A DNA stretch of 64,000 nucleotides. Origin: Amaurobius ferox. Taxonomy: Eukaryota; Arthropoda; Arachnida; Araneae; Amaurobiidae. The first letter of the stretch is position 1; each line of letters opens with the position of its first letter. Positions 26,060 to 51,895 of the stretch are shown here, piece after piece. Under the pieces are notes generated by a model. The model did no database searches. It saw only the letters and a program-made list of their open reading frames with translations, and had not been told where the DNA came from. The stretch spans positions 36,866,484 to 36,930,483 of the forward strand of contig OX578155.1 in the NCBI GenBank assembly GCA_951213105.1, in the 5' to 3' direction. The translations under genes were made by a program, and so were the position numbers.

Positions 26060-26393
26060 GCTTTGTTTGTAACTATCGCATTCCCAGTCTGCTTATTGTG
26101 CAATTCTCTTGTAAATTTTTCATAATCATGCATCTATTTCACAAACACTTCCCCCCCTAATTTGTAAATTTTCTTAACGTTGCTTGTTGTATCTCAACTA
26201 GCAGCTAGATGGCAGCACTGCTGCACCCTTGTTTTCACTCCCCTTCCAATAAGGAAGGACTGGACAATGCTGTCCTTTTTGAACGAATCAGATTACTTTG
26301 CTCAAATGATTGTAAGTGTACATACATTATCCACAGATCGGAGGTGAAAGCCCTCGGGCTAGGTACTCCTGCACGCGAACAACATCTCCTCGG
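26060..26393 (+). other. JkA 3' UTR with terminal hairpin
   Basis: Non-coding 3' region. Near the end, AGCC-CTCG-GGCT (26349-26360) is followed by AGGTACTCC and about 33 nt to the terminus. The same arrangement closes copy 2 (AGCC-TTCG-GGCT at 46586-46597). Confidence 0.75.
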
Positions 26394-26404
26394 TAGGAGT
26401 TGTC

Positions 26405-26539
26405 ATTAGTAGGGTCAATTCTTGGCCTGAAAGTAACCGATGATGACTGCGGGTGATGATTTATGTGAATTATATCCCTCGGTGTCTATGGGATCGCAAC
26501 GCCCATAGGCATTCATGTCTGAGTCTTCTACTAATGACC
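26405..26539 (+). ncRNA. RNA-X copy separated from its promoter by a JkA element
   Basis: The RNA sequence is complete (both C-like boxes, hairpin, D box, terminal stem), but only 10 bp of native upstream sequence remains. Upstream is the 3' UTR of a JkA LINE. It lacks the -59 motif and is probably silent unless the LINE supplies a promoter. Confidence 0.6.
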
Positions 26540-27303
26540 ATCTTAAAAGAAAAATATGTCAAGTGTATGACCTAATGTGTTTTCACATCACTAAAAGGGA
26601 TGAACATTCAGATACCTATACAATTATGCTTTCAAAAATATTTCTATTTATTTTTTAATATATGAATTGGCTATATCTTAATTAAGCCTTTATATATTGC
26701 GAAAATACGACTGGAGATTATATTTTCAGTAAATTAAGAAATAATATATCGTATAAGGATGTCGATTTAATCTGACTGCAGTTTTCAGCTTAAATTAAAA
26801 ACGGTTTACTTATTAGAAGTTTTAAAATATTGAGGAAACAGTTGACCGATCCTTGCCATGTCCCCATTCACCTGAAATGTTTTCAAGAAATAACCATTTC
26901 GCATTTATATTAAAATAATGTTTACTGAAGGTTTTATTTCTACACAAGAGCTGTGACAGTTTTAATGTCATTGAAATAATTATGTTGAAAAAGTAGCAAT
27001 ATTGTGCAATCAAGAACTTTGGAGCAGTTTACTGTCGTCTAATTGCCTAATCACTGAATCCAGAATATACATTTGAGAGAATACTCATCTTTTGGGATAC
27101 ACAGAGATTCCATTGGCGGAATGTGTTTATGGTAGATAGTGCACAACTTATTATTTTATATATCATAGTGGACATAATATTAATAATCTGGCATTGTATC
27201 CAGTGCTACATTAAGTTCGTCAATAGAGCATTTGCAGTTTATTCAGGGTCTATTATAAAAGTTTTGCGTTTGACTTATTTGAACTAAAGATATCAGACAG
27301 GCA
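26540..27303. other. unit spacer between RNA-X and U3
   Basis: Colinear with 19893-20657, with scattered substitutions. No gene seen. Confidence 0.6.
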
Positions 27304-27313
27304 TCTACCAGAA
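27304..27313 (+). promoter_or_regulatory. U3 promoter motif now upstream of a JkB LINE
   Basis: TCTACCAGAA exactly 59 bp before 27363, the first base of the JkB element. The U3 gene that it served begins, truncated, 5.2 kb downstream. A transcript started at the U3 +1 position would start on the first base of the LINE. Confidence 0.7.
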
Positions 27314-27420
27314 ATGAAGGAAAGTAAATGATTTCAGTAGTTTTTCTCCCTCAGGTTAGAGTTCGTTTTTCCCACGTGGTTGTGCTTTTCGTACTTCGAG
27401 TTATTTGACCCTGATTTATG

Positions 27421-29502
27421 ATGGATCTTGACAACGACCTATTGGAGAAGACGAAGGAAGTTGCTAGTGAGCTCGAGGGTGACGATGCTCGGCCTCTCAA
27501 GGATGCAATGGATGCGTATCTTGGACGCCTGCCGGACGCTGGACTTCTTGCCGCAAAGACCCAGGAAGTGAAGGATGCGGTGAACTATTGTGGAATGGTG
27601 ATCTACGTGCTGACACTGCATATCCAGGATATGCTCAAGTATGGACTCCTCGGACAGGACAAGGACCAAGTCTCCCGGATTCTAGGTTCGTTCAATTTTG
27701 TGAATTCTTTTTTGTTCTGCTGTGACATTGGTAAATTTAGAAATTGTGATAGTGATATTTATGTGATCTTTAACTCAGTTGAGGAGTATAATGATAGAGT
27801 AATTAGAGCTAAACTGTTAGTGTTAGGACTAATAAATGAAATTAAACTTATTGACAAAACTGAAACGGTTGTAAATCCATGTAAAAGGGCTAGGATAGAG
27901 GAGTCTCACACTGAGGGAACTCCTACTAAAAACCAGGATGGAAATTTAAAATTAAAATCTAATGACCATGATAACATGGACTGTAATGCTGCTAGTGATA
28001 GTGTTGTAAATGAAAAGGTTAGTGATAATGTTGTAACTGTAAATGAAAAAGTTAAAACTAAGACTTATGCTGAAATTGCCGCGCAACCGGTTCAATTTAA
28101 GAGTGCACCTAAACCTAAAGCGGTTGAAAATAGTGTTAGAGAAAATATTATGGAGGTAGAAAAAAAAGAACCAAAAGCAGAATGTTTCTTCATAAAGTTT
28201 AGAGACAACTACCAGGCTCTCCTTAAAAAGCTAAATGAAATTACAGGCAATAAAGTATCTGGCAAACTCTCAGGAGATATGCTCAAACTCATACCCAATG
28301 ACGCTGACTCCTATAGGGTTGTTCAGCGCCATTTGACTAGCGAGAAAATCCCCTTCCATAGTTTAAACCTAAAAACTGAAAGGCCAAAAAAGGTAGTTTT
28401 GAAGGGGCTACCAACTAACTATGACATTGAGGAGATTAAAATGACGCTAACATCCATTGGATTAGATGTAGTCCGGGTTTCTCAATTGAGAAACACAAAA
28501 ACAAGATTACCCCTGCCGATCTTCTTACACAGCCTTAGGCCCACGGAAGACTGGCAGAGGATTTACAGACTGACAAGGTTAGGATACTTGGCTGTGAAGG
28601 TAGAGGCCTTCAGAGCACGGGGCTTTAAGATTTGCTACCGGTGCCAGCAGTTCAACCACTCCTCTGAGAACTGCAGTATGCCACCAAAGTGCCTGAAATG
28701 TGCATAAGATCATTTCACACGGGACTGCCAGAGACCCAGGACAGAGAAGGCAACGTGTGCAAATTGTAATGGAGACCATCCAGCGAACTTCAGGCAATGC
28801 CCGAAGAACCCCTGGAACAGAGGAAAGGCACCGGAGTATGGCCCCCCTCCCCCAAAAAATCAGATACCACCTTGGAGGCAAAAGGCCCTCGGACTAAACC
28901 CCCAGGCACCCCCTCAGGGCTCCTCGCACATAGTGCCACAGGAAAAAAGACACCAACCTTCAGCACCTACCAGATCGGTGCAAGAGCAGGCCCCCAAACC
29001 TTCGACCTCCAGAGAATTGACCCTGGAGGAAGTAAGAGCAGCTACAGCCTACAGCTGCCATTAAAAAGAGATCGGAAATAGAAAAAGCCAGACAGGCAAA
29101 GGATAGGCTTGACATTAAGGTTGAGGATTGGAAACAAAATAAACGAGTCAGGGATGAAGAGATCGCGCAAACCCAGCCGTTAGTTAAAACGGGTGAAAAA
29201 AGCAAAAAACTATCGAGTTCCAAAAGGACACTCACAAAAAAGTGCAAACCGCGGTTGAGGCTGAGGAAATGGAAGCTGAGACTGAACCGACTGATAAATC
29301 TGATGCTGAAAAGATGGAGGATATCATCAACCTCATCAGAGGATTTATTAGCATGTTCAATCTAGACGACATAAAACATCTGTTGATGCAGTTCGCAGAG
29401 TTAGTACAAAAAAAGAGCGATCCTATGGTAATGGTCTTTGAGGCCCTTAAAATAATCGCGGACTTTAAAAATAACAGTGAGAATCAAACCCGTCATGGCT
29501 AG
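27421..29502 (+). pseudogene. JkB copy 1 ORF1, broken by nonsense and indels
   Basis: ATG at 27418/27421 (MDLDNDLLEK). The N-terminal helical region, the PRE_C2HC-type region and the first zinc knuckle (CYRCQQFNHSSENC) are readable to a TAA at 28705-28707. Copy 2 has a sense codon (GAA) at that place. The second and third knuckles, the coiled-coil and the C-terminal helical domain continue downstream with further frame changes, including near the C run at about 28843. The last segment (29242-29502) ends at a TAG that overlaps the ORF2 start. Confidence 0.88.
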
Positions 29503-32182
29503 GTCCCAAAAAGAATCCTTAAAAATAATATTTTGGAATGCGAACGGCATATCTCCAAGAATAAATGAACTTAGGAACTATGTAAATGAAAATGACGTAG
29601 ACGCCTTATTAATTCAGGAAACGAAAGTTAGAGAAAGTAAAAAACTAAACATAGCCAACTATATATGCTATCATAATCTTAGCTCAAATACTAATGCTAG
29701 AACGCCCCATGGAGGAACAGCAGTATACATTAAAAGAAATATTCCCCACGAGGAACTAAACAACATAAATCTTCAAGGTATAGAAAATACTAGTATAAAA
29801 ATTAAAATTAATAATACTAGCCCGTTTATCCTAACCTCAACATATGTCAAAAATATGAGTAGAGTAGATGTAGCTGCGCAACTGGAACTGCTTTTCGCGC
29901 GATATCCAAACACTATACTCGCAGGCGACTTCAACGCGCACCACCGAGCGTGGGGCTGTAGGAGAGCCAATTCACGCGGTACACAGATACACAGACTGCT
30001 GAACACGACAAACACTAACATTATTGTACCGTCGACACCAACCTGCTTCTCAGGCGCCAACGGCTCATTTATAGACTTTGTCCTAACGCGAAACATAGAT
30101 TACGCTCACACTATTAGTACCTTGGATGAATTCGACTCGGATCATCTGCCGGTACTGGTGACATTCGACCTGAACACACCTCTTCCAGCCTCTTTGGGAC
30201 AAGAGAGGGTCAACTGGGAAGTATTCAAAAGAGCACTCTTCGAGCCGCACTTAGCAGTACCTAACATAATGAGCACGGCGGATATTGACTCTGCCACGCA
30301 CACACTCACAACAGAAATCAAGAGAGCAATTGCCTCTGCCACAACACATCGTGAGTCTCCAAAAATGCCCACACTTTCCCACCATGTCAAACAATTAGTC
30401 AGGCAAAGAAACAGAATACGTAAGACATGGCAGGCTAACAGAGACCCCGCCCTTAAAAGGGAGCTTAACAGACTCACGTGCAAAGTCAGGGAAAAAATTG
30501 TCGCAGAAAAGCAGCAACAGTATAAAGAACTAATCGAATCCCTTAGCCCAGAAGACGTATCGCTCTGGCAATTCGCAAAAAGACTCAGGAAACCTCAAAT
30601 TAAGCTCCCGCCACTAATAGATGGTGCTAAAATCGCGTACTCAGACGAGGAAAAAGCCGAGGCGCTCGCAAGCCATTATGAAAAACAATTCCAACCAAAC
30701 CACGATCTAATGTGTCAGGACACCCTAAGAATGGTCAGACAAACTTTAAATAATTTCAGGAATTCCCCGGTAACGGCTGAGATTAGCCCAGCCACCCCGC
30801 AGGAGATAGTAGAAATCATTAAAAATCTCAAAAACCGTAAAAGCCCAGGGCACGACAAAATCAGAAATATTGCGGTTAAAAACCTACCCTTAAACGTAAT
30901 ATGTTACTTGACAATCTTAATAAATAAAATATTAAAACTAAACTATTTTCCCAAAGAATGGAAGGAAGCGATAATTATAGCAATCCATAAGCCTGGTGAG
31001 GATGCCACAATTCCAGCCAACTATAGACCAATTAGCTTGCTACCGACACTTAGTAAAATTACTGAGAAAATTATTCTTAAGAGACTGAACACGCACCTTA
31101 GTGAGAATGACATTATCATTCCGGAGCAGTTTGGATTTCGGCCAAAGCACTCCACCACTCATCAATTGCTGAGAGTGGTAGAGTACATATCTTCTGGTCT
31201 CAATAACAAGACACCCACAGCTGCGATTTTTCTGGACATACAAAAAGCCTTTGATAAAGTATGGCACTGTGGATTAGCATACAAATTGATCACTTTAAAA
31301 GTCCCTGACGCTATTGTCAAACTTTTAATCTCATACTTAAATAACAGACACTTTCAAGTAAGAGTAGGAGGTAACTTATCTACACCCAAGCTCATTAAAA
31401 GTAGTGTACCGCAAGGTTCTATCCTGGGCCCGACACTCTTTAACATATACCTGAACGACATCCCTAGGACTCCAAACACAGAGCTGGCACTCTATGCAGA
31501 CGACAGTGCGATACTTGCAAAACACCCCTATGTCTCAGTAATGCACAGACAGCTACAACAACACTTAGACATACTCCAAACTTGGCTGGAAAAATGGTGA
31601 ATAAAATTAAACCCCAATAAATGTCATTGGAATTATTTCTCAAGAAAACGTAAACCTCCGCCGCCTCTGTACATAAACAACCATGCCCTAAAAGCGGAAA
31701 AATCTACTAAATACCTAGGTGTAACGATAGATTCCCACCTAACCTGGAAACAGCACGTAACGAACTTAATCAAAAAAGCGTATATGGCCACAGGAGCCTT
31801 ATACCCAATGATAGGAAACGGAAATCTAAGTTATCAAAATAAACTCCTAATTTATAAATCGATCATCCGCCCGGGAATGCTGTATGCAGCACCCGTATGG
31901 GGATATGCCTGTAAAACTACAATAGACCTCCTAGAGACAAAACAAAACAAAATCCTACGGATTATCAGGAAAGCTCCCAGGTACTTAAGAAACTCGGTAA
32001 TTAGGAATGACTTCAAAATAAAAACTGTTAGAGCCCAAATTAAAAAGCTAGCGCTTAAATTTTACAGAAATTTGCCATCCGTTCCAAACGAACTGTTATT
32101 CAATCTGCATGACTATGATCATCGCAAGGCCAAATCTCGTAAGAGACCCCGCGCTGTTCTAAACATCGATAATCGGAATTAA
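29495..32182 (+). pseudogene. JkB copy 1 ORF2 (endonuclease-RT) with one nonsense codon
   Basis: It starts at ATG 29495, overlapping the ORF1 stop in the sequence CATGGCTAGG. One frame of 896 codons is interrupted only by TGA at 31598-31600, just after the RT palm (WLEKW), where copy 2 has CGA. Endonuclease motifs FWNANGI, GDFNAHHRAWG and SDHLPVL and RT motifs YRPISLLPTLSKI, FGFRPKHSTTHQLLR and YADDSA are all present. Otherwise intact, so it decayed only recently. Confidence 0.92.
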
Positions 32183-32513
32183 ATGATCCCACCTCAAACA
32201 TCTGATTTTAAAATAAAACTCGCGACTATTATTTTATAAAAAAAAAAAAAAAATATTCTAAACACTAAACTGCCAAAACGCTAGGTAACCCTTAGATCTG
32301 CATCAACCCCCCAAACTGCTTAAACTCTAAATGTGCAACAAACTGCCACACTAGGAGCTAGGACAAATAATAAAAAGTAGTAAATAAAAACCTCGAACCT
32401 CCAATTAGGGTCACTGAATTAATGTCACAGTTTGACGATAAGAACCACATATTGAAACTGGAGATTAAAGGCGCTTCGCGCCTGGTGCTCTGTCTTGTAC
32501 GACACTACGTATA
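32183..32513 (+). other. JkB copy 1 3' UTR with terminal hairpin
   Basis: Non-coding. It has an internal A-run (about 32239-32253) and a terminal GGCGC-TTC-GCGCC hairpin followed by TGGTGCTC, with about 31 nt to the end. Confidence 0.75.
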
Positions 32514-32677
32514 TTCACTCACCGAACTTCGCAGAAAACCCAACCACGATGATGTGGCAAGGGGTTTCATCCCGAGCGTGAAGCCGGCACATCAGCAACT
32601 TGTTGCTGTTGGCCATTGATGATCGCGCTCTCGACGTTTTTACGCCGAGGGAAGGATGAATCTCTGTCTGAGTGGTT
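32514..32677 (+). pseudogene. U3 snoRNA pseudogene, 5' 44 nt deleted
   Basis: It begins at TTCACTC (U3 nucleotide 45) right after the JkB element. Boxes C', C and D and the 3' end are present; the 5' domain with box A, which pairs with pre-rRNA, and the promoter are absent. It cannot act as U3 in processing. Confidence 0.92.
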
Positions 32678-34821
32678 CCCAATTATATTAAATATATGTT
32701 GTTTTAACAAGTAAATCGAAGGCAACGGAAAAGCCAACATTTCTAGCTACAAATTGTGGCCTAAATTTTAATTGCCTACTGTATGAAACACAGACTGATA
32801 TATACAGACATTAATTCATATCAAATTGGCACGCTTGGCACTGGTCGATGACGTTTTCGCCAAGACGTTCTGTTAATATAACCCTATTTGACTCTGAATG
32901 CAACCCTTACACAGCCATGCTTTCTTGTAGCGTATTACAGTGCAAAAAGATTATTTGTTAAGTGAATCGATAATTACAAGAAAGGATTACCAATTGAAAA
33001 AGCATTATCTTCAAAATGTATGTAATTTATTTTTATTTAAATGAAAAGTTTATTTGTTATCCATCCCATATTTCATCCTATGCACGTGATCATAAAAAAT
33101 GAATGATGTATTATCACTGCGGACTAGACCAAATTCCAAGAAGCAGTGGTATTATTAGTTAAAAAAACCTTTTCCGTATTTTTATAAGATGTACAAAAAT
33201 TGATATTTGGATAGCTTTTCCTAGTACAAATTAAATTGATTATGGTATTGTATAGGTATATATTTCGAATACTTTTTAATAACTAAAGCAATGGGGAAAA
33301 TACTCCGCCCCCTTGTAATTAAAGATTGAGTTCCTCAGCTTTGATCGTACATTTATGTAAAATGTTACTTGTTACAAGAATTTTAGTGTATTTAGAAAAA
33401 ATTACATTATGAGCACCTCCATAATAAATTGATAAGTAAGAAATTTAATAATCATATAGTAATCGTATAATATCATAGAAGTTTAATAATCAATAATCAT
33501 AGTTGTATAATATTACTGTCTTTTGAGTATGTTAGCTTATAATTTTTGGTGCATAACGATTTACAGTAATGTAAATGCGTCAATTTTTTATTTAGTTTAT
33601 GATTACATGAATTAAATATATAGCTATGTTTATTTATTTAAATTCACTCAAACAAATAAATATATTACAGATAAAAATATTTTTAAATGCTGATCATTTT
33701 TATAGTTTAAAAATTATAAAAGTACAGTAGCGTAATTTTTATGCCCGCATTAACATAAAACCGTCAAACGTACGATAGTCGCCAAATCTAGCAGCCGGAC
33801 TTTGTTTACATCGTAGCTCCGATGGTTGGCTCCCCGAATGCTAGTGTCCATGCGAAATCCCTTGTTAAAGATGTTGCCATGGGTTCCTATGGAAGTGATC
33901 CTTCTGAATATGGTAATCTGCGGTGCGAAATATAGTGAATATAAGAAATAGTTTGAAATCCGCGCATTGATCTGATCATATTTTGAGACACATTTTGAAG
34001 CACCGCAAGAGGTCGCTGATATCAACCGTTACGTATTTTTTCCCAAAATTTAACATTGTTGCGCACTTTGTGATTTTCAATGTCTACGTTGGAGTTTCCA
34101 TTTTACGCCTGTTTCATAGGACATACATTTGTTTACTAAGGATGGAAAATACGTATCAACAATCATTGCAAATACACCACGAATGTGTAATAAAAACCTA
34201 TTTCCAACTGTGGGATAACCCTTTTCTGACGTATCCTTTAGATGCCATTTCCACCTGTGTGTTGGTAATTTAAAATGACGTATACGTAATATCTTGAAAT
34301 GTTGGGATTACGTCACAAACACGTATCCTCAAGCATTGAAAATGAGCCTTTAAAACTTATGAATATTTCATAAATAATTATTACCAATTTGGCAACACGC
34401 ATAAGCAACCGCTGAACATTCATCATATCGCGACCTTTGCACATACATTAAAAATTTTTATTTTTGTAAAAATATCTAAAAATAAAATGTATATTGAAAT
34501 CACAGAAAAAAAAAAATAAATGATACATTAAGTAATTTACTGTAATGCACCTTTTCAATAAAGATATTAATATTAAGTTTCCTATAAGCTGACAGAAATA
34601 AATGTTTCATTATTAGACGACTGCATTAGCAGGTCAAATCTGAATGTTGTTGAATAGGTATTTCCGAATTGTATAGGGGAATTAAAAATGCCACCAAGAG
34701 AATTTTTTGGGGCATCTCCTACTACTCTCCTTAACAAAATATTGTTGTTTATTACTGTTTATGCTGCCTGGACTGACTCCTGTCCAATGCAATTTTTCTT
34801 AAATTATCCCTCCTCCCTGTG
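32678..34821. other. unit spacer between U3 and SINE
   Basis: AT-rich, no recognised gene. A GC-richer patch (33740-34030) is open in two overlapping antiparallel frames in all units, but near-identity of the units makes that uninformative. Confidence 0.5.
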
Positions 34822-35114
34822 TTGTTGTTGTTGTTGAGACCCAGACCGTCCGACCTACCAGAAAGGTGCAAGGCAACTGTTTGGACGGCCGGGAAGTGCC
34901 ACACAATTTAGACCGGAACCCAGTGGGGGAGGCATCCACAGGGACCGTACCCTACTTCCCCTACCACCAACCTCTCGGAAGGACTTACGGACCCACATGT
35001 TTAACGTGATCGTACTCCGCGTGAACACGGCGGCAGTTTTGGCAGTGGCTGGAATCGAACCCGGGCCAACCGAGTGCAACTCCAGCGCGCTAACCAATGG
35101 GCTACCGCACCCTG
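34822..35114 (-). mobile_element. tRNA-derived SINE fixed in the array unit
   Basis: Minus-strand head (GGTGCGGTAGCCCATTGG, B box GGGTTCGATTCC), body, and (CAA)n tail at the 34822 side. Perfect 10-bp target duplication CCTCCCTGTG at 34812-34821 and 35115-35124. The same insertion with the same flanks occurs in each later unit, so it entered one unit before the array was amplified or homogenised. Confidence 0.93.
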
Positions 35115-36337
35115 CCTCCCTGTGTGTCACAAGCTGAAAAAAACCGTTTTTAATAGAGGTCTGATTTTTAACACTCATGTGTCAATTCAAATTACCGTAG
35201 AATTAATTCCATGGATAGTCCGGCCCTCCTCGTGAAAGTGTACCGCTCTTTTTTTGGCAGTTAAAGTGTACCCTCAATTAAGTTAGCAGATTTCCGCCCC
35301 CGTTTACATTCCTGGGGTCCCTTTTGTCGTATTTAAAGGGATGCATCAACGGAAATCTCCCTGTTTCTATAAGCGGAAAATTTTCTTTAACCAACTGGCA
35401 TTTTTTAGTGCACCCTTCCTATTTCCGTAACTTTCAATCCCATTAGGGAGAAACCGATCTCATTAGACTGAATTCTACGGTTGACGGAATGTTGATGCTT
35501 GAATGTTTAATATAATACCTTTACAAGTACATCTTTTTACCCAAACTATGAATTGTAGAGAAATTTGAGATGGAATTTCTGAACGAAATTCATTCTTTTA
35601 AAATGGAATTTCAGAATGATATTCATTCCTTTAAAATTATGACTCTGGACAAATTAAGTAATAAGTTATGCAATAAAAATATAATTTATTATGGGTAAAT
35701 TTCAGTAATTTTCGTAAAGGTTATTAATTTACTGTACATCAGATGAGAGACGACAAATGAATAATTTCACAAAGTTTTTGGCAGAAATATTATCTTCCGA
35801 AAGATTTGAATACAAATTACAGCTCAAAGGTGTTGCAGCAAGAACCGAATCGCGATTGCTGACAGCGACATCTAGCGGTTTCTTAAAATTAGGCGCAGTT
35901 TTTGATCTTTGGTTTACACACTGGCCTACATAGCCACTGTAGTATTGATGAACGACCCGAATAATGTAAAGTAAATGTTCAATTTCCCCTTTTAAGTAAT
36001 AACTTGCTGCGTTTTACCGAAAATATTCGATGAAGCAATCAAACCTTATTCGCAAAAAATTATTTTCTATTTTAATGTAGTCGATGCAATGCCTATGCGC
36101 ATCATGTGGCAAATTGAGGAATGTATAATGTCGAATAACTTTTTACTATTTCAAAAATTGCCTCTACTTCTAGTTAAAGTATGCCTTGGGATCTATTTAT
36201 TAGATCGCTGCTACGTTGTTCCGAAAGCACAATAATTGGATTTATTATCCTTCGATCTGAATGTATGGTTTGATGGGCGTGGTTTAGTAAGATTATGAAG
36301 AAAAAGGCAATTTTGAAACGGATTAGAAAATAGAACC
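35115..36337. other. unit spacer between SINE and JkC insertion
   Basis: Colinear with 17913-19100. No gene seen; the frame corresponding to 18485-18868 is closed by a TAA here. Confidence 0.5.
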
Positions 36338-36409
36338 ATTCGAGTCTAGAACGTCGTCGGGGTAGGTCGTTTTCACGGTCTGCTCCTGCTTTGCGCCATT
36401 TTGGACGAA

Positions 36410-38122
36410 ATGGATCTAACACGTGCTCTCACCTCGGTTGCTACGTTTAAGAGGATCTTCGGATCTGACTTATGTATGGCCGATTGGAGGTTGTTCAAAG
36501 AGCAATATCATGCTCTTCCTGAAGAGATTCCCTTGAGAGGGAAGCCCGACTTAGAAAAGTTACAGCATTCGGACTTTGAGTACGAGGAACTTTGTATTAT
36601 TGTTGATAACCCACCCAGGGATATCACCAGGCACGAGTGGTTGATTTTGAAGGCCAAAGCTGCTGCTATGGAAAAAGATATGGAGATTGCATTGGACGAT
36701 GCAACAAGTATGGATCAGTCAGGTGAGCCCCCCATGAGTTCTTCTCATGGGTTTTCTGTTGTCTCTACTACGCCTACGATGTCTCCAGCCCCCCCCATGC
36801 CGTCCCAGACCACGTGCACAGGCACCTCGAATAGAATTGTGATTTCTAAAGAAGTTTTAAAAGTTATGAATGATTTTGAAAAATTTTCCAGTGAGAATAG
36901 TTCTGCTTCAAATCCCAGCACCAGTGCCAGTAAACATCCCTTAAATGATTCCGACGAGGAAGGATTTTTCAAAGTGCCAAAAAGGCACTCAGCCAAAGCT
37001 GTTAAGAACACCCCCCCCCCCCCTCCCATTTCCACGGTCCAGCCTGTTCTGGATCCTGAGGTTCCTGCACCTGATGCTGCTAACACTGATGAAATTCCTA
37101 AAAAAGAACGCCGCCCCCCCCCCCTTTTCATAGTGCACAGCCCTAGCTGGTACGATTATCTGAATCAGTTGCGCATTATAGCGCCATCTATCGTCAGTAG
37201 TTTGAGAGGTAGTCTTTTTAAAATAGAGGTTGATACTAGACAGGAATTTATAGAAATACAGAGAAGACTTCTTAATGATAAAATTTCTTTTCGGACCTTT
37301 CTCCTCAACGAGGACAAACCCCTCAAGGTAGTAATCAGGGGTCTCCCTGTTCCTACCAGTGTAGACCTAATTAAAGAGAGACTTGAAGTTGGAGGTTTTC
37401 AGATTAACAGTGTCACCCAGCTGTACAAGGGTCCCAAAACGAACAGAATAATGATGCCCCTGTTTTACGTTCAATTGAACAAAAACCCGGATAACCTTAA
37501 AATTTATCAGGTAATCAAGCTGTTAGGAGTTTCTGTTAAAATCGAGCGATACAGAGGGCGCAAGGGCGCCAGCACCCAGTGCTTTTCATGCCAGAAATGG
37601 CACCATGCCGCTAATTCGTGCCATCTCCCGCCCAAGTGTGTTAAGTGCGCAGGCGACCACAGATCCTACGAATGTCCGAAAAAGCCGGAAGTGAAGTGCA
37701 CTTGTGCTAACTGCGGAGGGGAACACCCCGCCAGCTATAGAGGCTGTCCTAAATTTCCCAAACCTAGAGTCGCTCAAATTCGCAATTTTACCAGTAGACC
37801 TGTTCAAAACAACGTATCATACGCTGCTACTCTTCAACATAAACCTCAAGATTTTCCTAAACTTCCGACCAAAGTCACCCCTCAATCCAAAATTGTAAAT
37901 TTTAACCCTAATAAGCCTCCCACTGAAAGTGATGATAACATGAGAGATGACTGGATGGAGGTCATCGATCTGATAGTCCGTTTCGAAAGAAATGGATATC
38001 AGAGAGATTTCCTCCAAAAAGCCCTTAATGCTGCCCTCCCTAAATTGAGAGAATCCACTACTATAATTGATAGGATAGCAATACCGTATGACAGTATTTG
38101 CGACCTTGCTAAATCCCCTTAA
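36410..38122 (+). CDS. JkC ORF1, gag-like zinc-knuckle protein, intact
   Basis: 570 residues from ATG 36410 (an upstream in-frame TTG is not used). The N-terminal half is acidic and Ser/Pro-rich with two polyproline stretches encoded by C runs (about 37012 and 37118) that keep frame here. A PRE_C2HC-type region follows (about residues 300-385), then three zinc knuckles from about residue 391: CFSCQKWHHAANSC, CVKCAGDHRSYEC, CANCGGEHPASYRGC. A C-terminal helical segment with IVRFERNGYQRDFLQKAL is similar in place to the C-terminal helix of JkB ORF1. Inferred role: RNA binding and particle formation for its own transcript, with RT supplied in trans. It is one of only two undamaged long frames in the array. 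Confidence 0.9.
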   Translation: MDLTRALTSVATFKRIFGSDLCMADWRLFKEQYHALPEEIPLRGKPDLEKLQHSDFEYEELCIIVDNPPRDITRHEWLILKAKAAAMEKDMEIALDDATSMDQSGEPPMSSSHGFSVVSTTPTMSPAPPMPSQTTCTGTSNRIVISKEVLKVMNDFEKFSSENSSASNPSTSASKHPLNDSDEEGFFKVPKRHSAKAVKNTPPPPPISTVQPVLDPEVPAPDAANTDEIPKKERRPPPLFIVHSPSWYDYLNQLRIIAPSIVSSLRGSLFKIEVDTRQEFIEIQRRLLNDKISFRTFLLNEDKPLKVVIRGLPVPTSVDLIKERLEVGGFQINSVTQLYKGPKTNRIMMPLFYVQLNKNPDNLKIYQVIKLLGVSVKIERYRGRKGASTQCFSCQKWHHAANSCHLPPKCVKCAGDHRSYECPKKPEVKCTCANCGGEHPASYRGCPKFPKPRVAQIRNFTSRPVQNNVSYAATLQHKPQDFPKLPTKVTPQSKIVNFNPNKPPTESDDNMRDDWMEVIDLIVRFERNGYQRDFLQKALNAALPKLRESTTIIDRIAIPYDSICDLAKSP

Positions 38123-38569
38123 ATTCAGGTATTTAGTTTACGATAGGGTTTTTTGCGAGTCCTGCTTGCCAGGGCTTGTTTTTTCCCGTGGTCTGGAACT
38201 GTGCGGCTTTCTGATTGGCTGGGCCTGGATCCCTTGATCTGCTGGCACTTCCCGCCGTCCCCCCTCCTTCTGCCTCGTGTGTACGCTGCTCATCGTCTCA
38301 AGACAGAGTTCCACGGAACTCAACCCTTTCTTCCAATATTTCCCTTTATTTCTCGGAGTTATTCTCTCCATATTCCAAATCAGCGACATGTAGACCGCAT
38401 TGGGAATACTCCCAATTCTGTCTAACGTGCACGCTATGATCTTTCCAGATCACTATTTTATTTAAAAGTCTTTTCTATGATTACCAAACCTGCTACAGCT
38501 ATGACCGGGGAAGAAAGCAAGCCTTCGGCTTTGCTAGGTACCCCAAGATTTGGACTCCTTGAGACCTTG
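38123..38569 (+). other. JkC 3' UTR with terminal hairpin
   Basis: Non-coding, with CATCGTCTCAAGACAG, TTCTCGGAGTTATTC and AATTCTGTCTAACGTGCAC shared with the relic at 12660-12960. The terminal hairpin AAGCC-TTC-GGCTT parallels those of JkA and JkB. Confidence 0.75.
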
Positions 38570-38582
38570 AGAAAATAGAACC

Positions 38583-39330
38583 GCCGTGGGCTCCTGATAA
38601 CAGCAATTTCCTAAATATTTTATTTTTCCAGTCTTACTAATCATGTTTTATTCATTTTCTTCATATTTGAAATTGTAACGCATCTATTTTAGGTAAGTTT
38701 TTCATGCGATTCTTCTAGAAAAAAATTTCAAAAACAGTAATATACAGAGAAAATATAGTTTCACTTTTGCATAATTTTACTATCATCAAAGTCCGAACAC
38801 TTTATTTATTGAACTCACTATTTTTTGCGAAAATATGTATCCGAATTGCAAGTCGTTTGGACTGCAAAATTTTTGTTTTCTTTAAACAGTTTTTGTAAAA
38901 GGTATTACTTGTTTGTATGTGAATGTTATTTTGATTATTCTTAAGCCATACGTCATTTTGTAAGTTTGAAGGTCTGACCTGTCATTAATTTTATCATATA
39001 TTTTCCATCAATTGCTCTGATGTGCGTTAAACATGAAGTCGGTGCTTCGATTCCCTTTCATGAGATTCCATCTTAAAATTTATTTGTGAAATGCGGTGGG
39101 TTCCGGATATTCGACAAAAAAGAATGTTTTAAGAATGTCATGTGTGGCCTAAGAATGCTATGAAACCTCGGTTAGACCGATATCTACGATGTAAAATTTG
39201 AAATCTTAATATTGTATCTAGTTTCCAGATTGAAAAATAGAATTATTTTTTAATACAAAAATATATTCCCATTAAAATAGAACAACAGAATTAGTTCAGA
39301 TGCATAATTTCTACTAGAATTATATTATGT
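38583..39330. other. unit spacer between JkC and RNA-X promoter
   Basis: Unit sequence including the ~130-bp segment (38870-39010) missing from the edge unit. No gene seen. Confidence 0.5.
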
Positions 39331-39340
39331 TCCACTAAAA
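39331..39340 (+). promoter_or_regulatory. RNA-X promoter motif now upstream of a JkB LINE
   Basis: TCCACTAAAA exactly 59 bp before 39390, the first base of JkB copy 2. The RNA-X gene it served lies 5.3 kb downstream at 44730. Confidence 0.7.
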
Positions 39341-39637
39341 TAATGCGACAAAACCTTTCATAATTTAACATTGTTGTTTAGGAGTTGTCGATTCGGAGCT
39401 TAGACTTCGAGTTGTGTGGACGTACTTTAGTATTGCTCCTGCTTTTACCAGTTGGTGATCTTCCGCTTGGGCGTGTTATATCTAGTTTCGATAGAGCACG
39501 TCGGGCAAAGCAATTCTACAGCTTGTTGTGTACGGGCGATTCGCCATTTTGGATTTTGTGCTTTCCATTTTGGAGTGCCACGTGTGTTGTTACCACGTGG
39601 TAGTGCTATTTTTTTGGAACTTCTCCACCCTGACGAT

Positions 39638-41716
39638 ATGGATTTGGAACGAGGCGACGTGGCAGCTACTCGCGAACTTGCTGGTGAGCTGGACGAGGAA
39701 GAATTCGGGCCTCTCAAGGGTGCCTTGATGAATTTCTGTGAAACTCTACCTGATGATGGACTGATGACTGGACTGAAGGAAGAAATCAAGACCGCCGTCA
39801 ACTTCTGCACCCTGGCAGTCTACGTGATGACCCTTCACATCAGGGAGCTGCTGATGAACGGACTACTGGGACAGGAAGAAGATCAAGTCTCCAAGATGCT
39901 AGGTTCGTTACTTTCTGTGAATTCTTTTTTGTTTGCCCGGAAATTGGATAGGTTTATTGATTGTGATATTTATGAGATTTCTAAATGTGAGGGATGTAAT
40001 TCTAGTGTTCAAATCAAAAGTAAAATGATAGAGCTAGGCTTAATTAAGGATATTAAAGATGAAGATAAACTTAAAACGGTTGAAAATCCAAATAAAAAAA
40101 GAAAGATGGAGGGGCAATCCACTAAGGATGCTCCTACTAAAAGCCAGATTGTAGAAGAAAACTTAAATGTCCATGATAACATGGACTATAATGAAATAGC
40201 TGATAATGTTGTAAATGTAACTGACAATGATTATGTTAAAACTAAGACTTACGCTGAGATTGCCGCGCAACCAGTAGTGTTTAAAAGTGCACCTAAACCT
40301 AAAACGGTCGAAAATAGTGACAGGCTAACAACAGTTGAAGTTGAGAAAAAAGACCCAAAAGCTGAATGTTTTTTCATAAAGTTCAATGATAATTACAAGG
40401 TTCTCCTTAAAAAACTAAATGATATCTCAGGAAATAAAGTATCTGGCAAGCTCACAGGAGACATGCTAAAATTGATTCCAAATGACGCTGACACCTACAG
40501 GGTTGTACAGCGCCATTTAAGTAGTGAGAAAATCCCCTTCCACAGCTTAAACCTAAAGACGGAGAGGCCAAAAAAGGTAGTTCTGAAGGGGCTACCAACA
40601 AATTATAACATGGAGGAAATAAAAATCACTTTAACATCCGAAGGATTAGATGTAGTCCGGGTTTCTCAACTGAGAAACACTAAAACGAGATTACCCCTGC
40701 CGATCTCCTTAGTCAGCCTTAGGCCTACGGCAGACTGGCAGAGGGTCTACAGACTAACAAGATTAGGTTACTTGGCTGTGAAGGTAGAGGCCTTCAGAGC
40801 ACGGGGCTTCAAAATCTGCTACCGGTGCCAACAGTTCAATCACTCCTCGGAGAACTGCAGTATGCCACCTAAGTGCCTTAAGTGTGCTGAAGAACACTTC
40901 ACACGGGACTGCCAGAGACCTAGGTCTGAGAAGGCTACGTGTGCAAATTGCAATGGAGACCACCCAGCGAACTTCAGGCAATGCCCGAAGAACCCCTGGA
41001 ACAGAGGAAAGGCACCGGGGTATGCCCCCCCTCCCCAAAATCAGATACCCCCTTGGAGGCAAAAGACCCTCGGATTAAACTCCCAGGCACCCCCTCAGGG
41101 CTCCTCGCACACTGTGCCACAGCAAAATAGATACCAATCTTCAGCACCCACCAGATCGGTGCAAGAGCAGGCCCCCAAACCTTCGTCTTCCAGAGAATTG
41201 ACTCCGGAAGAAGTAAAACTGGCTACTACAGCCATTATAAAGAGAAAGGAAGCCGAAAAAGCCAGACAGGCAAGACAGGCGGAACTAGAAGCTAAAATTG
41301 TAAATCAATATGCTAAATCAAAAGAAGAAATCAAAACACGTGAAGCCAAAACTAAACGAGTCAGAGAGGAAGAGCTCGCGCAAACCCAGCTGTTAGAAAA
41401 AACGGTTGAAAAAAGGCAAAAAACTACTGAGGTCCAAAAGGATACTCACGAAAATGACCAAACCGCGGTTGAGGCTGAGGATATGGAAGCTGAGACTGAA
41501 CCTGCTGGTAAAACCAATGATGAAAAGATGGATGACATCCTCAACCTCATCAGAGGGTTTATCACCATGTTCGACCTAGATGCAATAAAACACCTGTTGA
41601 TGCAGTTCGCAGAGCTAATACAAAAAAAGAGTGATCCAATGCAAATGGTCTTTGAGGCTTTTAAATTAATCGCGGACTTTAAAAATAACAGTGAGAATCA
41701 AACCCGCCATGGCTAG
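39638..41716 (+). CDS. JkB copy 2 ORF1, gag-like zinc-knuckle protein, intact
   Basis: 692 residues from ATG 39638 (MDLERGDVAATREL); the frame is open further upstream but without an ATG that matches copy 1. N-terminal helical region; PRE_C2HC-type region (about residues 300-390); three CCHC knuckles from about residue 394 (CYRCQQFNHSSENC, CLKCAEEHFTRDC, CANCNGDHPANFRQC); a Pro/Gln-rich linker; a charged coiled coil (about residues 530-610: KRKEAEKARQARQAELEAK); and a C-terminal helical domain (MDDILNLIRGFITMF). The stop TAG overlaps the ORF2 ATG. Likely the RNA-binding component of the LINE particle. Confidence 0.93.
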   Translation: MDLERGDVAATRELAGELDEEEFGPLKGALMNFCETLPDDGLMTGLKEEIKTAVNFCTLAVYVMTLHIRELLMNGLLGQEEDQVSKMLGSLLSVNSFLFARKLDRFIDCDIYEISKCEGCNSSVQIKSKMIELGLIKDIKDEDKLKTVENPNKKRKMEGQSTKDAPTKSQIVEENLNVHDNMDYNEIADNVVNVTDNDYVKTKTYAEIAAQPVVFKSAPKPKTVENSDRLTTVEVEKKDPKAECFFIKFNDNYKVLLKKLNDISGNKVSGKLTGDMLKLIPNDADTYRVVQRHLSSEKIPFHSLNLKTERPKKVVLKGLPTNYNMEEIKITLTSEGLDVVRVSQLRNTKTRLPLPISLVSLRPTADWQRVYRLTRLGYLAVKVEAFRARGFKICYRCQQFNHSSENCSMPPKCLKCAEEHFTRDCQRPRSEKATCANCNGDHPANFRQCPKNPWNRGKAPGYAPPPQNQIPPWRQKTLGLNSQAPPQGSSHTVPQQNRYQSSAPTRSVQEQAPKPSSSRELTPEEVKLATTAIIKRKEAEKARQARQAELEAKIVNQYAKSKEEIKTREAKTKRVREEELAQTQLLEKTVEKRQKTTEVQKDTHENDQTAVEAEDMEAETEPAGKTNDEKMDDILNLIRGFITMFDLDAIKHLLMQFAELIQKKSDPMQMVFEAFKLIADFKNNSENQTRHG

Positions 41717-44396
41717 GTCCCAAAAAGAAAGCTTTAAAATAATATTTTGGAATGCGAACGGCATATCTCCAAGAATAAATGAACTTAGGAACTACGTAAA
41801 TGAAAATGATGTAGATGCCCTGTTAATTCAGGAAACTAAAGTTAGAGAAAATAAAAAACTAAATATAGCAAACTATATTGGCTATCACAACCTAAGCTCA
41901 AATACAACTGCTAGAAACCCCCATGGAGGAACAGCAATATATATCAAAAGAAATATTCCCCACGAGGAAATAAACAACATAAATCTTCAAGGAGTAGAAA
42001 ATACTAGCATAAAAATTAAAATAAATAATGTAAACCCATTTATCCTAACTTCAATATATGTCAAAAACATGAGTGGTATAAATGTAGCTGCGCAGCTGGA
42101 ACTGCTTTTCTCGCGATATCCAAACACAATACTCGCGGGCGACTTCAATGCACACCACCGAGCGTGGGGCAGCAGGAGAGCCAACATACGCGGTACACAG
42201 ATACACAGATTACTGAACACAACAAACACCAACATCATTGCACCGTCGAGACCAACCTGCTTCTCAGGTGCCAACGGCTCATTCATAGACTTTGTCCTAA
42301 CGAGAAACATAGAATACGCTCACACTATCGATACCCTAGATGAATTCGACTCGGATCATTTACCGGTATTGGTGACATTCGATCTGAACACTCCCCTTCC
42401 AGCCTCTCTGGGACAAGAGAGGGTGAACTGGAACGTTTTCAAAAGAGCACTTTTTGAGCCGCACTTGGCAGTACCCAACATTATGAGCACGGCGGATATT
42501 GACTCTGCCACACACACACTCACAACAGAAATCAAAAGAGCTATTGCCTCTGCCACAACACATCGTGAGTCACCAAAAATGCCCACACTTTCCCACCATG
42601 TCAAACAATTAGTTAGGCAAAGGAACAGAATGCGTAAGACATGGCAGGCTAATAGGGACCCTACCCTCAAAAGGGAGCTTAACAGACTCACGTGGAAAGT
42701 CAGGGATAAAATTGTCGCAGAAAAGCAGCAACAGTATAAAGAGTTAATTGAATCCCTTAGCTCGGAAGACGTATCGCTCTGGCAATTCGCTAAAAGACTC
42801 AGAAAACCTCAAATTAAACTCCCGCCACTAATAGATGGCGTTAAAATCGCGTACTGAGACGAAGAAAAAGCAGAGGCGCTTGCTAGGCATTACGAAAAGC
42901 AATTTGAACCAAATCACGATCTAATGTGTCAGGACACCCTAAGAATGGTTAGGCAAACTCTAAACAACTTCAGGAACTCCCCGGTCACGGCTGAGATTAA
43001 CCCAGCCACCCCGCAAGAGATAATTGATATCATCAAAAACCTTAAAAACCGTAAAAGCCCAGGGCACGACAAAATCAGGAATATTGCGGTCAAAAACCTA
43101 CCCTTAAATATAATATTTTACTTGACCACCCTAATAAACAAAATACTAAAACTAAATTATTTCCCCAAAGAATGGAAGGAAGCGATAATTATAGCGATCC
43201 ATAAGCCTGGTGAGGATGCCACAATTCCAGCCAACTATAGACCAATCAGCTTACTACCGACACTTAGTAAAATTACTGAGAAAATAATTCTTAATAGACT
43301 GAACACGCACCTTAGTGAGAATGATATTATCATTCCGGAGCAGTTTGGATTTCGGCCAAAACACTCCACCACTCATCAATTGCTGAGAGTGGTAGAGTAC
43401 ATATCTTCTGGACTTAATAGTAAGACACCCACAGCTGCGATTTTTCTTGACATACAAAAAGCATTTGATAAAGTGTGGCACTGTGGATTAGCATACAAAT
43501 TGATCACTCTAAAAGTCCCTGACGCACTTGTCAAACTTTTAATCTCATACCTAAATAACAGACACTTCCAAGTTAGAGTAAAAGATAACATGTCTACACC
43601 CAAGCTCATTAAAAGTAGTGTACCGCAAGGATCCATCCTGGGCCCGACACTCTTTAACATATATCTAAATGACATCCCCAGGACCCTAGACACGGAGCTG
43701 GCACTCTATGCAGACGACAGTGCGATACTTGCAAAACATCCTTACGTCTCAGTAATGCACAGACAGCTACAACAACACTTAGACATACTCCAAACATGGC
43801 TGGAAAAATGGCGAATAAAATTAAACCCCAATAAATGTCATTGGATTTATTTCTCTAGAAAACGTAAACCTCCGCCGCCTCTGTACATAAACAACCATGC
43901 CCTAAAAGCGGAAAAATCTACTAAATACCTAGGTGTAACGATAGATTCCCACCTAACCTGGAAACAGCACGTAACGAACTTAATCAAAAAAGCGTATATG
44001 GCCACAGGAGCCTTATACCCAATGATAGGAAACGGAAATCTAAGTTATCAAAATAAACTCCTAATTTATAAATCGGTCATCCGCCCGGGAATGCTATATG
44101 CAGCACCCGTATGGGGATATGCCTGTAAAACTACTATAGACTTACTAGAGACAAAACAAAACAAAACCCTAAGGATTATAAGGAAAGCCCCTAGATACTT
44201 AAGAAACTCGGTAATTAGGAAAGACTTCAAAATAAAAACTGTTAGAGCCCAAATTAAAAAGCTAGCGCTTAAATTCTATAAAAATCTGCCATCTGTTCCA
44301 AATGAACTACTATTCAATCTGCATGACTATGATCATCGCAAAGCCAAATCACGTAAGAGACCCCGCGCGGTACTTAATATTGAAAATCGGAATTAG
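41709..44396 (+). pseudogene. JkB copy 2 ORF2 (endonuclease-RT) with a single nonsense codon
   Basis: ATG 41709 overlaps the ORF1 stop by 8 bases, suggesting reinitiation or coupled translation. One 896-codon frame is broken only by TGA at 42855-42857, between endonuclease and RT, where copy 1 has TCA. Endonuclease: FWNANGI, GDFNAHHRAWG (about residue 143), SDHLPVL (about residue 213). RT: YRPISLLPTLSKI, FGFRPKHSTTHQLLR, SVPQGSILGP and YADDSA (about residue 667). The C-terminal region ends KRPRAVLNIENRN. Copies 1 and 2 are equal in length here and carry different, private nonsense codons. Confidence 0.93.
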
Positions 44397-44718
44397 GTAA
44401 GTCCCAACTTAAATAGTTGATATTAAATTAAAACTCGATCAATGTTTTCTAAAAAATGTTGTTAAACCTTAAACTGCCAAATTGATAGGAAATCCTTAGA
44501 ACTGCATCAACTCCCCAAAATTACTCAAACTCTAAATGTGCAACAAACTGCCACACTAGGAGCTAAGTCAAATAATAAAAACAGTAAATCAAAAACCTCG
44601 AACCTCCAACTATGGGCAAATGAAATAATGTCACAGTATGAAGATAAGAACCACACCTAGAGATTGGAGATTAAAGGCGCTTCGCGCCTGGTGCTCTTTT
44701 CTGGACGAAACCCACATC
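44397..44718 (+). other. JkB copy 2 3' UTR with terminal hairpin
   Basis: Non-coding; GGCGC-TTC-GCGCC (44676-44688) then TGGTGCTC and 30 nt to the end. Similar to the copy 1 3' UTR but without its A-run. Confidence 0.8.
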
Positions 44719-44729
44719 TAGGAGTTGTC

Positions 44730-44864
44730 ATTAGTAGGGTCAATTCTTGGCCTGAAAGTAACCGATGATGACTGCGGGTGATGATTTATGTGAATTATAT
44801 CCCTCGGTGTCTATGGGATCGCAACGCCCATAGGCATTCATGTCTGAGTCTTCTACTAATGACC
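44730..44864 (+). ncRNA. RNA-X copy separated from its promoter by a JkB element
   Basis: Complete 135-nt RNA-X sequence with only the 10-bp duplicated AGGAGTTGTC of native upstream sequence; its promoter is at 39331. Probably not expressed from its own promoter. Confidence 0.6.
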
Positions 44865-45628
44865 ATCTTAAAAGAAAAATATGTCAAGTGTATGGCCTAA
44901 TGTGTTTTCACATCACTAAAAGGGATGAACATTCAGATACCTATACAATTATGCTTTCAAAAATATTTCTATTTATTTTTTAATATATGAATTGGCTATA
45001 TCTTAATTAAGCCTTTATATATTGCGAAAATACGACTGGAGATTATATTTTCAGTAAATTAAGAAATAATATATCGTATAAGGATGTCGATTTAATCTGA
45101 CTGCAGTTTTCAGCTTAAATTAAAAACGGTTTACTTATTAGAAGTTTTAAAATATTGAGGAAACAGTTGACCGATCCTTGCCATGTCCCCATTCACCTGA
45201 AATGTTTTCAAGAAATAACCATTTCGCATTTATATTAAAATAAGGTTTACTGAAGGTTTTATTTCTACACAAGAGCTGTGACAGTTTTAATGTCATTGAA
45301 ATAATTATGTTGAAAAAGTAGCAATATTGTGCAATCAAGAACTTTGGAGCAGTTTACTGTCGTCTAATTGCCTAATCACTGAATCCAGAATATACATTTG
45401 AGAGAATACTCATCTTTTGGGATACACAGAGATTCCATTGGCGGAATGTGTTTATGGTAGATAGTGCACAACTTATTATTTTATATATCATAGTGGACAT
45501 AATATTAATAATCTGGCATTGTATCCAGTGCTACATTAAGTTCGTCAATAGAGCATTTGCAGTTTATTCAGGGTCTATTATAAAAGTTTTGCGTTTGACT
45601 TATTTGAACTAAAGATATCAGACAGGCA
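44865..45628. other. unit spacer between RNA-X and U3
   Basis: Colinear with 26540-27303. No gene seen. Confidence 0.6.
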
Positions 45629-45638
45629 TCTACCAGAA
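45629..45638 (+). promoter_or_regulatory. U3 promoter motif upstream of a JkA fragment
   Basis: TCTACCAGAA, 59 bp before the interrupted U3 +1 at 45688. Only AAGA of U3 remains before the JkA copy 2 insertion. Confidence 0.65.
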
Positions 45639-45691
45639 ATGAAGGAAAGTAAATGATTTCAGTAGTTTTTCTCCCTCAGGTTAGAGTAAGA

Positions 45692-46302
45692 CAGAATCAT
45701 ATCACCATACTTATAAAATATTACGATAATTGGAAAATCAAGATAAACGCATCCAAATCGCAGGCAGTCTTTCTCTCTGGAGCCCGTATCCCCCCCCCTT
45801 AATGTTCAAAAATCAGCCTATCCCTTTTTCGCGTACTGCCAAGTACCTCGGTGTCCATTTGGATAGCCGGCTTACTTGGCGTACGCACTTTGAGTACATT
45901 GTCAAAAAAACTAAAAAGCTCGTAGGAGCACTAAATCATCTTTTATTTTCAAAAGACCTCGATATTAGCAATAAGATTCTCTTATACAAGAGCATTATGC
46001 AGCCAATTCTCTTATATGCATGCCCGGTTTGGGGGTATGCATGTAAATCGAATATTCAAAAACTTCAAGTGGAACAGAACAGGATACTCCGAATCATCAG
46101 GAAAGCCCCTCGTTACTTACGTAATGATATAATTCACAAAGACTTTAAAGTAAAAACTATTAAACAGGCTATTAAAAAACAAACTACAAAATTCTTTAGA
46201 GACATACCAAAAATACCGAATGAATCTCTGTTTAATCTCCAGGACTATGACCCGCGGGCGAATAAAAAGCGTCCCCGTGCAGTCTTGTATGAACCTCCCT
46301 AA
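45692..46302 (+). pseudogene. JkA copy 2, C-terminal ORF2 fragment
   Basis: RT thumb and C-terminal region: NWKIKINASKSQAVFLSGA, then a frame change at a C8 tract (about 45791-45798), then MFKNQPIPFSRTAKYLGVHL through KRPRAVLYEPP. The frame change is at the same C tract that breaks copy 1 (near 25546). Confidence 0.88.
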
Positions 46303-46630
46303 GCATCGTTTTAATTTTTCTAGCATTCCCAGTCTGCTTATTGTGCAACTCTTTAACCTCTTACATTCTTTTAGCATCTATCTCGCAAACTCCTCCCCCC
46401 TCAGCTTGTATCCAATGCTGCAAGTTGTATCCCAACTTGCCTCTAGATGGCAGCACCGCTGCACCTTAGTTTTCACTCTCCTTCCAATAAGGAAGGCTGG
46501 ACTTTGTGTCTTTTTTGTATGAATCAGATCAATTTCGCTCAAATGATGACATGTGTTAATACTTTATCCACAGACCGGAGGTAAAAGCCTTCGGGCTAGG
46601 CACTCCAGCACGTATCCAACATCCCCGGGT
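45692..46630 (+). mobile_element. Jockey-clade LINE, family JkA, copy 2, 5'-truncated, at the U3 start
   Basis: Flanked by a 14-bp target duplication AGGTTAGAGTAAGA (45678-45691 and 46631-46644). The 3' junction is at -10 of U3, as in copy 1 at RNA-X. It holds only the last part of ORF2 and the 3' UTR with hairpin AGCC-TTCG-GGCT (46586-46597). 5' truncation is the usual product of incomplete target-primed reverse transcription. Confidence 0.93.
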
Positions 46631-46640
46631 AGGTTAGAGT

Positions 46641-46848
46641 AAGATCATACTTCATAGGATCATTTCTATAGTATGATTAGCGAGTTCACTCACCGAACTT
46701 CGCAGAAAACCCAACCACGATGATGTGGCAAGGGGTTTCATCCCGAGCGTGAAGCCGGCACATCAGCAACTTGTTGCTGTTGGCCATTGATGATCGCGCT
46801 CTCGACGTTTTTACGCCGAGGGAAGGATGAATCTCTGTCTGAGTGGTT
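46641..46848 (+). ncRNA. U3: U3 snoRNA gene body, intact but promoter displaced by JkA copy 2
   Basis: All 208 nt are present and equal to the array consensus with all boxes. Only AGGTTAGAGT (10 bp) of native promoter precedes it; the -59 motif lies ~1 kb upstream behind the LINE fragment. Likely silenced in practice although the RNA sequence is perfect. Confidence 0.92.
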
Positions 46849-51388: not shown

Positions 51389-51836
51389 GAAACAGTTTTT
51401 GTAAAAGGTATTACTTGTTTGTATGTGAATGTTATTTTGATTATTCTTAAGCCATACGTCATTTTGTAAGTTTGAAGGTCTGACCTGTCATTAATTTTAT
51501 CATATATTTTCCATCAATTGCTCTGATGTGCGTTAAACATGAAGTCGGTGCTTCGATTCCCTTTCATGAGATTCCATCTTAAAATTTATTTGTGAAATGC
51601 GGTGGGTTCCGGATATTCGACAAAAAAGAATGTTTTAAGAATGTCATGTGTGGCCTAAGAATGCTATGAAACCTCGGTTAGACCGATATCTACGATGTAA
51701 AATTTGAAATCTTAATATTGTATCTAGTTTCCAGATTGAAAAATAGAATTATTTTTTAATACAAAAATATATTCCCATTAAAATAGAACAACAGAATTAG
51801 TTCAGATGCATAATTTCTACTAGAATTATATTATGT

Positions 51837-51846: not shown

Positions 51847-51895
51847 TAATGCGACAAAACCTTTCATAATTTAACATTGTTGTTTAGGAGTTGTC

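Follow-up and report, generated by a model that had tools for sequence, protein, structure and literature searches.

A tandem array of U8 and U3 small nucleolar RNA (snoRNA) genes in the spider Amaurobius ferox is interrupted by five copies of long interspersed nuclear elements (LINEs), all in gene orientation and four of them located at gene starts. The array was analyzed within a window of 64,000 nt, by which we mean the whole stretch of DNA considered here (assembly GCA_951213105.1, contig OX578155.1, positions 36,866,484 to 36,930,483 of the forward strand). Between 26 and 47 kb each of the four RNA starts carries a LINE of one of two families, JkA and JkB, in the order JkA at U8, JkB at U3, JkB at U8 and JkA at U3. 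This agrees with a preliminary description of the same DNA, in which the U8 gene (RF00096) was named RNA-X. The best explanation, which we regard as probable, is that the starts of U3 and U8 snoRNA genes are preferred by JkA and JkB, two old families of Jockey/X-element-type LINEs, which insert in gene orientation through a target-primed process steered to snoRNA-type promoters. The fifth copy, JkC1, was unmentioned in the preliminary description and represents a third family.

Positions within the genes are counted from a +1 taken as AAGA in U3 and as ATTAG in U8, starts that were inferred from the Rfam ends and the common spacing. On this numbering AGG is found at -10 in both genes. The motif TCYACYARAA begins at -59 of both as well, as had been claimed, with a second copy at -80 in U8 only. 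Apart from TYAGG, the start regions of U3 and U8 have little in common.

In three of the four start events the 3' junction of the element is followed by the AGG at -10, either directly or after one T (26395, 44720 and 46631). The offset is -10 for JkA at U3 and -11 as read for JkB at U8, where the 3' flank reads TAGGAGTTGTCATTAG; for JkA at U8 it may be either, the T being assignable to element or target. The earlier statement that AGG follows at exactly -10 in three cases therefore holds for the AGG, while the offsets agree only within one base, and the same is true of the supposedly fixed distance between the insertion sites and the promoter motif. Both JkB copies have their 5' junction at +1 (27363 in U3, 39390 in U8), as originally described. 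A target-specific LINE is recognized by repeated insertion at one site and by duplications of the kind left by target-primed reverse transcription; here three of the four 3' junctions lie at -10/-11, and complete duplications accompany two of the four events (JkB at U8 and JkA at U3), which are also the only ones clean at both ends, rather than the three previously counted as clean. JkB at U3 is associated with the loss of 54 bp of target (-10 to +44, including +1 to +44 of U3). JkA at U8 joins spacer at its 5' end, some 638 bp past the point where U3 begins in the upstream unit; roughly 4 kb of the unit is gone, and no duplication is present.

The four start insertions are supported as independent events by sequence comparison. 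Pieces of the second open reading frame (ORF2) are only 38-53% identical between JkA and JkB, because of which we treat insertions of the two families as separate. Within JkB, the identity between the two copies is 93-96% for ORF2 protein and 81-90% for DNA over two aligned stretches, with lower values at the 5' end; within JkA, the DNA of the two 3' ends agrees at about 81%. Since the families and their copies diverge and the U3 and U8 starts share little but TYAGG, copying of a single event is unlikely, and the earlier assertion that each family has hit both genes separately is upheld.

Chance was assessed post hoc throughout, against a null of uniform and independent insertion within 5,632 bp. 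The probability that three of five 3' junctions fall at one offset is 4.5e-8 when the offset may be any of 101, in either orientation, and may be ambiguous by one base, and 5.7e-9 when the offset is taken as exact. For at least four of five insertions having a junction no more than 15 nt from a start it is 1.2e-6. Each unit contains 45 TYAGR sites on both strands, corresponding to a YCT^RA nick, and the probability that all three AGG-type events fall on one particular pair of them is (2/45)^3, or about 9e-5. These figures argue against coincidence, yet are compatible with a sequence preference.

Coordinates of the LINE insertions, their target sites and the reference unit within the window
Feature	Position	Strand	Remarks
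JkA at U8	21355..26393	+	long copy with disrupted ORF1 and ORF2 frames; 3' end meets U8 -10/-11
U8 from -11/-10 onward	26394..26523	+	severed from upstream promoter by JkA
Promoter-like motif TCTACCAGAA	27304..27313	+	at -59 of U3 start holding JkB
JkB at U3	27363..32513	+	5' junction +1; 3' junction at U3 +45
U3 from +45 onward	32514..32676	+	first 44 nt gone
JkC1 target-site duplication, 5' copy AGAAAATAGAACC	36325..36337	+	13 bp
JkC1	36338..38569	+	array spacer, no gene start; ORF1 36350-38122 (590 aa); no ORF2 match
JkC1 target-site duplication, 3' copy	38570..38582	+	
Promoter-like motif TCCACTAAAA	39331..39340	+	at -59 of U8 start holding JkB
JkB/U8 target-site duplication, 5' copy TAGGAGTTGTC	39379..39389	+	U8 -11 to -1, 11 bp
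JkB at U8	39390..44718	+	ORF1 frame open 39431-41716; ORF2 frame 41670-44396 open except one stop
JkB/U8 target-site duplication, 3' copy TAGGAGTTGTC	44719..44729	+	U8 body next
U8 body behind JkB	44730..44848	+	119/119 identical to uninterrupted copy at 51896; without own promoter
Motif TCTACCAGAA	45629..45638	+	at -59 of U3 start holding JkA
JkA/U3 target-site duplication, 5' copy AGGTTAGAGTAAGA	45678..45691	+	U3 -10 to +4, 14 bp
JkA at U3	45692..46630	+	5'-truncated: ORF2 end and 3' untranslated region (UTR); 5' junction after +4
JkA/U3 target-site duplication, 3' copy AGGTTAGAGTAAGA	46631..46644	+	begins with AGG at -10
U3 body behind JkA	46641..46847	+	206/207 identical to uninterrupted copy at 52854; without own promoter
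Uninterrupted unit, empty-site reference	51390..57021	+	5632 bp; U8 +1 at 51896, U3 +1 at 52854

Target-primed reverse transcription is established for LINEs, and it would leave duplications like these, which run from a nick near -11/-10 to a second cut at +1 to +5. In the steps we propose, the bottom (template) strand would be nicked at or beside -11/-10, the free end at the nick would prime cDNA synthesis from the 3' end of the LINE, and the top strand would be cut between +1 and +5. Aiming would be mainly the work of the snoRNA-type promoter complex, as TYAGG and the spacing from the -59 motif are nearly all that the start regions have in common. That motif is equidistant in both genes, and two families have entered two genes at one offset within a base. 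Both long JkB copies sit exactly at +1 below an intact promoter-like region, and the displaced bodies (U8 for JkB, U3 and U8 for JkA) have about 10 bp upstream. A new LINE at +1 could be transcribed from the intact snoRNA promoter, and the displaced snoRNA body, with its 10 bp or so of 5' flank, would be silenced. Spare array copies would make such a loss tolerable, as for R1 and R2 in ribosomal DNA (rDNA). If Jockey-type elements use the starts of two such different snoRNA genes, this would be a sign of promoter-mediated aiming and would supply the LINEs with a ready promoter. It would also allow host-factor targeting to be tested, using a defined endonuclease on two natural targets.

A bolder form of this explanation, possible but rather doubtful, holds that what JkA and JkB recognize is an engaged snRNA-type promoter, not the DNA letters themselves, and that the duplicated 11-14 bp correspond to the transcription bubble. 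The two cuts would then delimit the melted start region, with the template nick at its edge upstream (-11/-10) and the second cut at its edge downstream (+1 to +5). In extent, the duplicated interval (-11/-10 to -1/+4) is what a promoter bubble usually covers, and this suggests an engaged promoter as the target. If true, every full-length insertion would occupy +1 behind a captured snoRNA promoter and the LINE would be expressed like U3 or U8; promoter capture would be a targeting mode for LINEs and could reach any gene with the -59 motif.

Several points weigh against a preference for snoRNA gene starts. Specificity is deduced from four insertions in one array, and there are just five array insertions in a single array of a single genome, with gene starts that are themselves inferred. 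Among the four target events, the 3' junction of one is displaced to U3 +45, and the 5' side of a second has been lost. On the bottom strand of the empty sites a nick at -10 reads ACCT^GA in U3 and TCCT^AA in U8, so that CCT^RA is common to both genes, but JkB at U8 as read is nicked one base off (CCTA^AA) and the nick context is not fully shared. When the chance estimate is restricted to TYAGG sites, of which the unit holds 14, the probability is only 0.003, and sequence could thus supply much of the specificity.

This last consideration leads to a rival account, in which the endonuclease itself would recognize a short motif, such as TYAGG with its flanks, at about -12 to -4 of both genes, without any role for the promoter. 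We consider it unlikely, though it has some substance: across both strands of the unit, the degenerate sequence TYAGGWKWK is restricted to the two sites that were used, and known target-specific LINEs are described as reading DNA directly, set apart from TRE5-A, which is aimed by host proteins (PMC3706591). However, TYAGGWKWK was written post hoc from those same two sites, and two families with ORF2 proteins as divergent as those of JkA and JkB would both need to have retained the preference. Beyond AGG the flanking sequences differ, and at U3 the 5' junction of JkB is at +1 although its 3' junction is not at AGG. A more generic process, insertion without specificity into open promoter chromatin, would have LINEs favor nucleosome-free starts with a T^R nick, small numbers then mimicking exactness. 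T^R nicks are ordinary for LINE endonucleases of the apurinic/apyrimidinic (AP) type, and the YCT^RA context of both starts recurs in JkC1 (TCT^AA), a JkC relative elsewhere in the window having GGT^AT. That three events fell on the same base within one nucleotide, and that JkC avoided the starts of the same array, makes this account improbable.

Two further accounts would remove the need for repeated targeting. One or two founding insertions may have been copied through the array by recombination or gene conversion, a process that its strong homogenization would favor and to which the clearly rearranged JkA copy at U8 could be related. We reject it on divergence and hold it to be very improbable, as the U3 and U8 starts are not homologous and DNA within each family differs by about 10-19% over aligned stretches, in addition to the distance between the families. 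The other is an artefact of assembly. The array is repetitive, and one JkA junction as well as a 580-bp partial duplication (50809-51388) look rearranged. Three array insertions are nonetheless flanked by matching target duplications of 11, 13 and 14 bp, which are not a product of assembly error, and on these grounds an artefact was likewise rejected as having hardly any probability.

The array begins at about 17.9 kb and continues to the end of the window, its unit measuring 5,632-5,633 bp, as determined by BLAST of the window against itself, and in that comparison the uninterrupted units are more than 99% alike. An Rfam scan of the window identified five copies of U3 (RF00012) at 87-129 bits and five of U8 at 42.5 bits, which reaches the gathering score of 41, marginally. 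An additional U8-like copy near 19758 was matched by BLAST and is absent from the Rfam listing. Searching one whole array unit against Rfam at E values up to 1 returned nothing besides U3 and U8, and no tRNA genes were found by an ARAGORN scan. Empty U8 starts in the window are located near 19758 (the U8-like copy) and at 51315 (a partial copy), 51896, 57528 and 63161; together with the empty U3 starts at 20717, 52854 and 58486, they make eight LINE-free starts. The partial copy belongs to a 580-bp tandem duplication within the array (50809-51388 and 51390-51969), in which a U8 fragment with its promoter and about 74 nt of the RNA directly precedes a complete unit. Exact matches to TCYACYARAA are also found outside the array, on the minus strand at 11447-11456 and 14717-14726, with no adjoining Rfam gene at the gathering score.

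JkC1 can be used as a control, as siting within the array does not by itself drive insertion to a start. The Rfam search of one unit detected no RNA gene at its site. A relative of JkC1 at about 12303-12972, away from any Rfam gene, is 57% identical over the ORF1 end, contains one stop and has the same layout of ORF1 followed by 3' UTR. Its likely duplication is ACCAGAACCTT, and its 5' boundary at 12303 is based on an 11-bp repeat spotted by eye (chance about 0.005 in the stretch compared); the protein match reaches 22 bp further out than this boundary. AGAACC is contained in both JkC duplications. Neither JkC1 nor its relative had any match to JkA or JkB ORF2 at E 1e-4, and JkC looks like a gag-only Jockey-type family.

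The assignment of JkA and JkB to Jockey/X-element-type LINEs draws on their domains and was also examined in a reverse-transcriptase tree. A domain scan, which covered 8 of the 12 listed frames, placed PRE_C2HC (PF07530) in the ORF1 frames of JkA, both JkB copies and JkC, and zinc knuckles were visible by eye. Five of the six ORF1 protein matches are named, all from the spider Trichonephila. ORF2 of JkB contains Exo_endo_phos and RVT_1 with no RNase H match in that scan, and both domains also occur in the ORF2 pieces of JkA. At 84% identity, P0001 (896 aa) is the nearest full-length relative, and PF00075 (RNase H) is not among its listed domains; P0204, paired with P0001 as the closest relative, is 55% identical. 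Both are known as proteins only, the longest contig for each being 5455 bp. Candidate relatives with DNA flanks were sought in 9 stretches among viral contigs and 28 among genome contigs, and none was confirmed. A C-terminal CCHC knuckle in ORF2 is a feature of the R1 clade, and none is present in residues 601-896 of P0001. The endonuclease domain found is of AP type, as opposed to the PD-(D/E)xK endonuclease of R2 and Utopia-type elements, and the restriction-like domain had no separate search. The tree comprised 40 rows (3 from the window and 37 hits), had no curated reference per clade and included a JkA row filling 38% of the columns; in it JkA and JkB fall with unnamed relatives into one 7-row group (support 100/99), which adjoins two sequences (P0011 and P0012) named X-element (Trichonephila clavipes) by their source. 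Comparison with solved structures gave 12 matched sequences, including LINE-1 ORF2p and R2. A poly(A) 3' tail is typical of Drosophila Jockey/X-element members, but all five array copies end without poly(A), about 20-30 nt past a hairpin-like GC-rich stretch. We propose no conserved 3' stem-loop, since z-scores over the five 3' ends were -0.88, -0.49, -1.54, -2.54 and -0.30 and only one of the five clearly beats its shuffles.

No element targeting U3 or U8 is described among the matches listed in the open-access literature, in keeping with the preliminary description, which had known of none aimed at U3 or other snoRNA starts. Our results suggest a targeted insertion habit at snoRNA starts that is undescribed for U3 and U8 among those matches. 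The nearest parallel is Tribolium freemani, in which Jockey-like elements are mostly associated with 5S arrays, the shorter 5S pseudogenes are restricted to this configuration, and a stretch of 30 bp at the gene start is absent from 32 of the 113 5S copies (PMC11202950). These elements are likewise Jockey-like, about 5 kb long and found in a tandem small-RNA array, and the start-less 5S copies resemble the U3 copy without its first 44 nt. They differ in having a 5S (RNA polymerase III) target and a satellite association, and the available parts of the report give no exact site or duplication (PMC11202950). By analogy, the case suggests that Jockey-type elements may target small-RNA genes more widely.

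Keno is a member of the Tx1 clade. Keno, with an AP-type endonuclease, and Utopia, with a restriction-like one, are LINEs in U2 snRNA genes and so resemble JkA and JkB in residing in multicopy snRNA-type genes, yet they use one fixed U2 sequence, belong to other clades and have no start common to two genes in the account available (PMC4640811). TRE5-A of Dictyostelium is closer to the proposed mode, as a LINE aimed at tRNA genes through host DNA-binding proteins, but unlike JkA and JkB it inserts at a distance near its target and not at one base (PMC3706591). R1 and R2 reside in 28S rDNA (PMC3706591). They similarly put some copies of a tandem gene family out of action, though they insert inside the gene at one sequence and do not occupy the 5' start position. 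Dada elements, which insert in U1, U6 and tRNA genes, share multicopy small-RNA targets and short duplications, but are DNA transposons placed inside the RNA sequence (PMC3706591). A telomeric role is described for HeT-A-type elements of Drosophila (PMC10088271). JkC invites comparison with these elements, as it looks gag-only like HeT-A, although HeT-A, TART and TAHRE reside at chromosome ends and not at internal gene starts. All three are Jockey-clade elements with a special target.

Other repetitive elements were noted outside the array. A BEL/Pao long terminal repeat retrotransposon occupies 113-5481; its frame at 113-4381 has its best named matches in spiders and a pseudoscorpion (closest Parasteatoda, 62%). 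About 600 bp past this element is a single 5S rRNA gene (6072-6190, 96 bits). A repeat at 6237-7084 with inverted arms (6237-6458 and 6807-7028), possibly a miniature inverted-repeat transposable element, is about 94% identical to a stretch in four array spacers (e.g. 34818-35101). At 15123-17902, inverted copies (about 91%) of a degenerate tandem-repeat region flank the first array unit.

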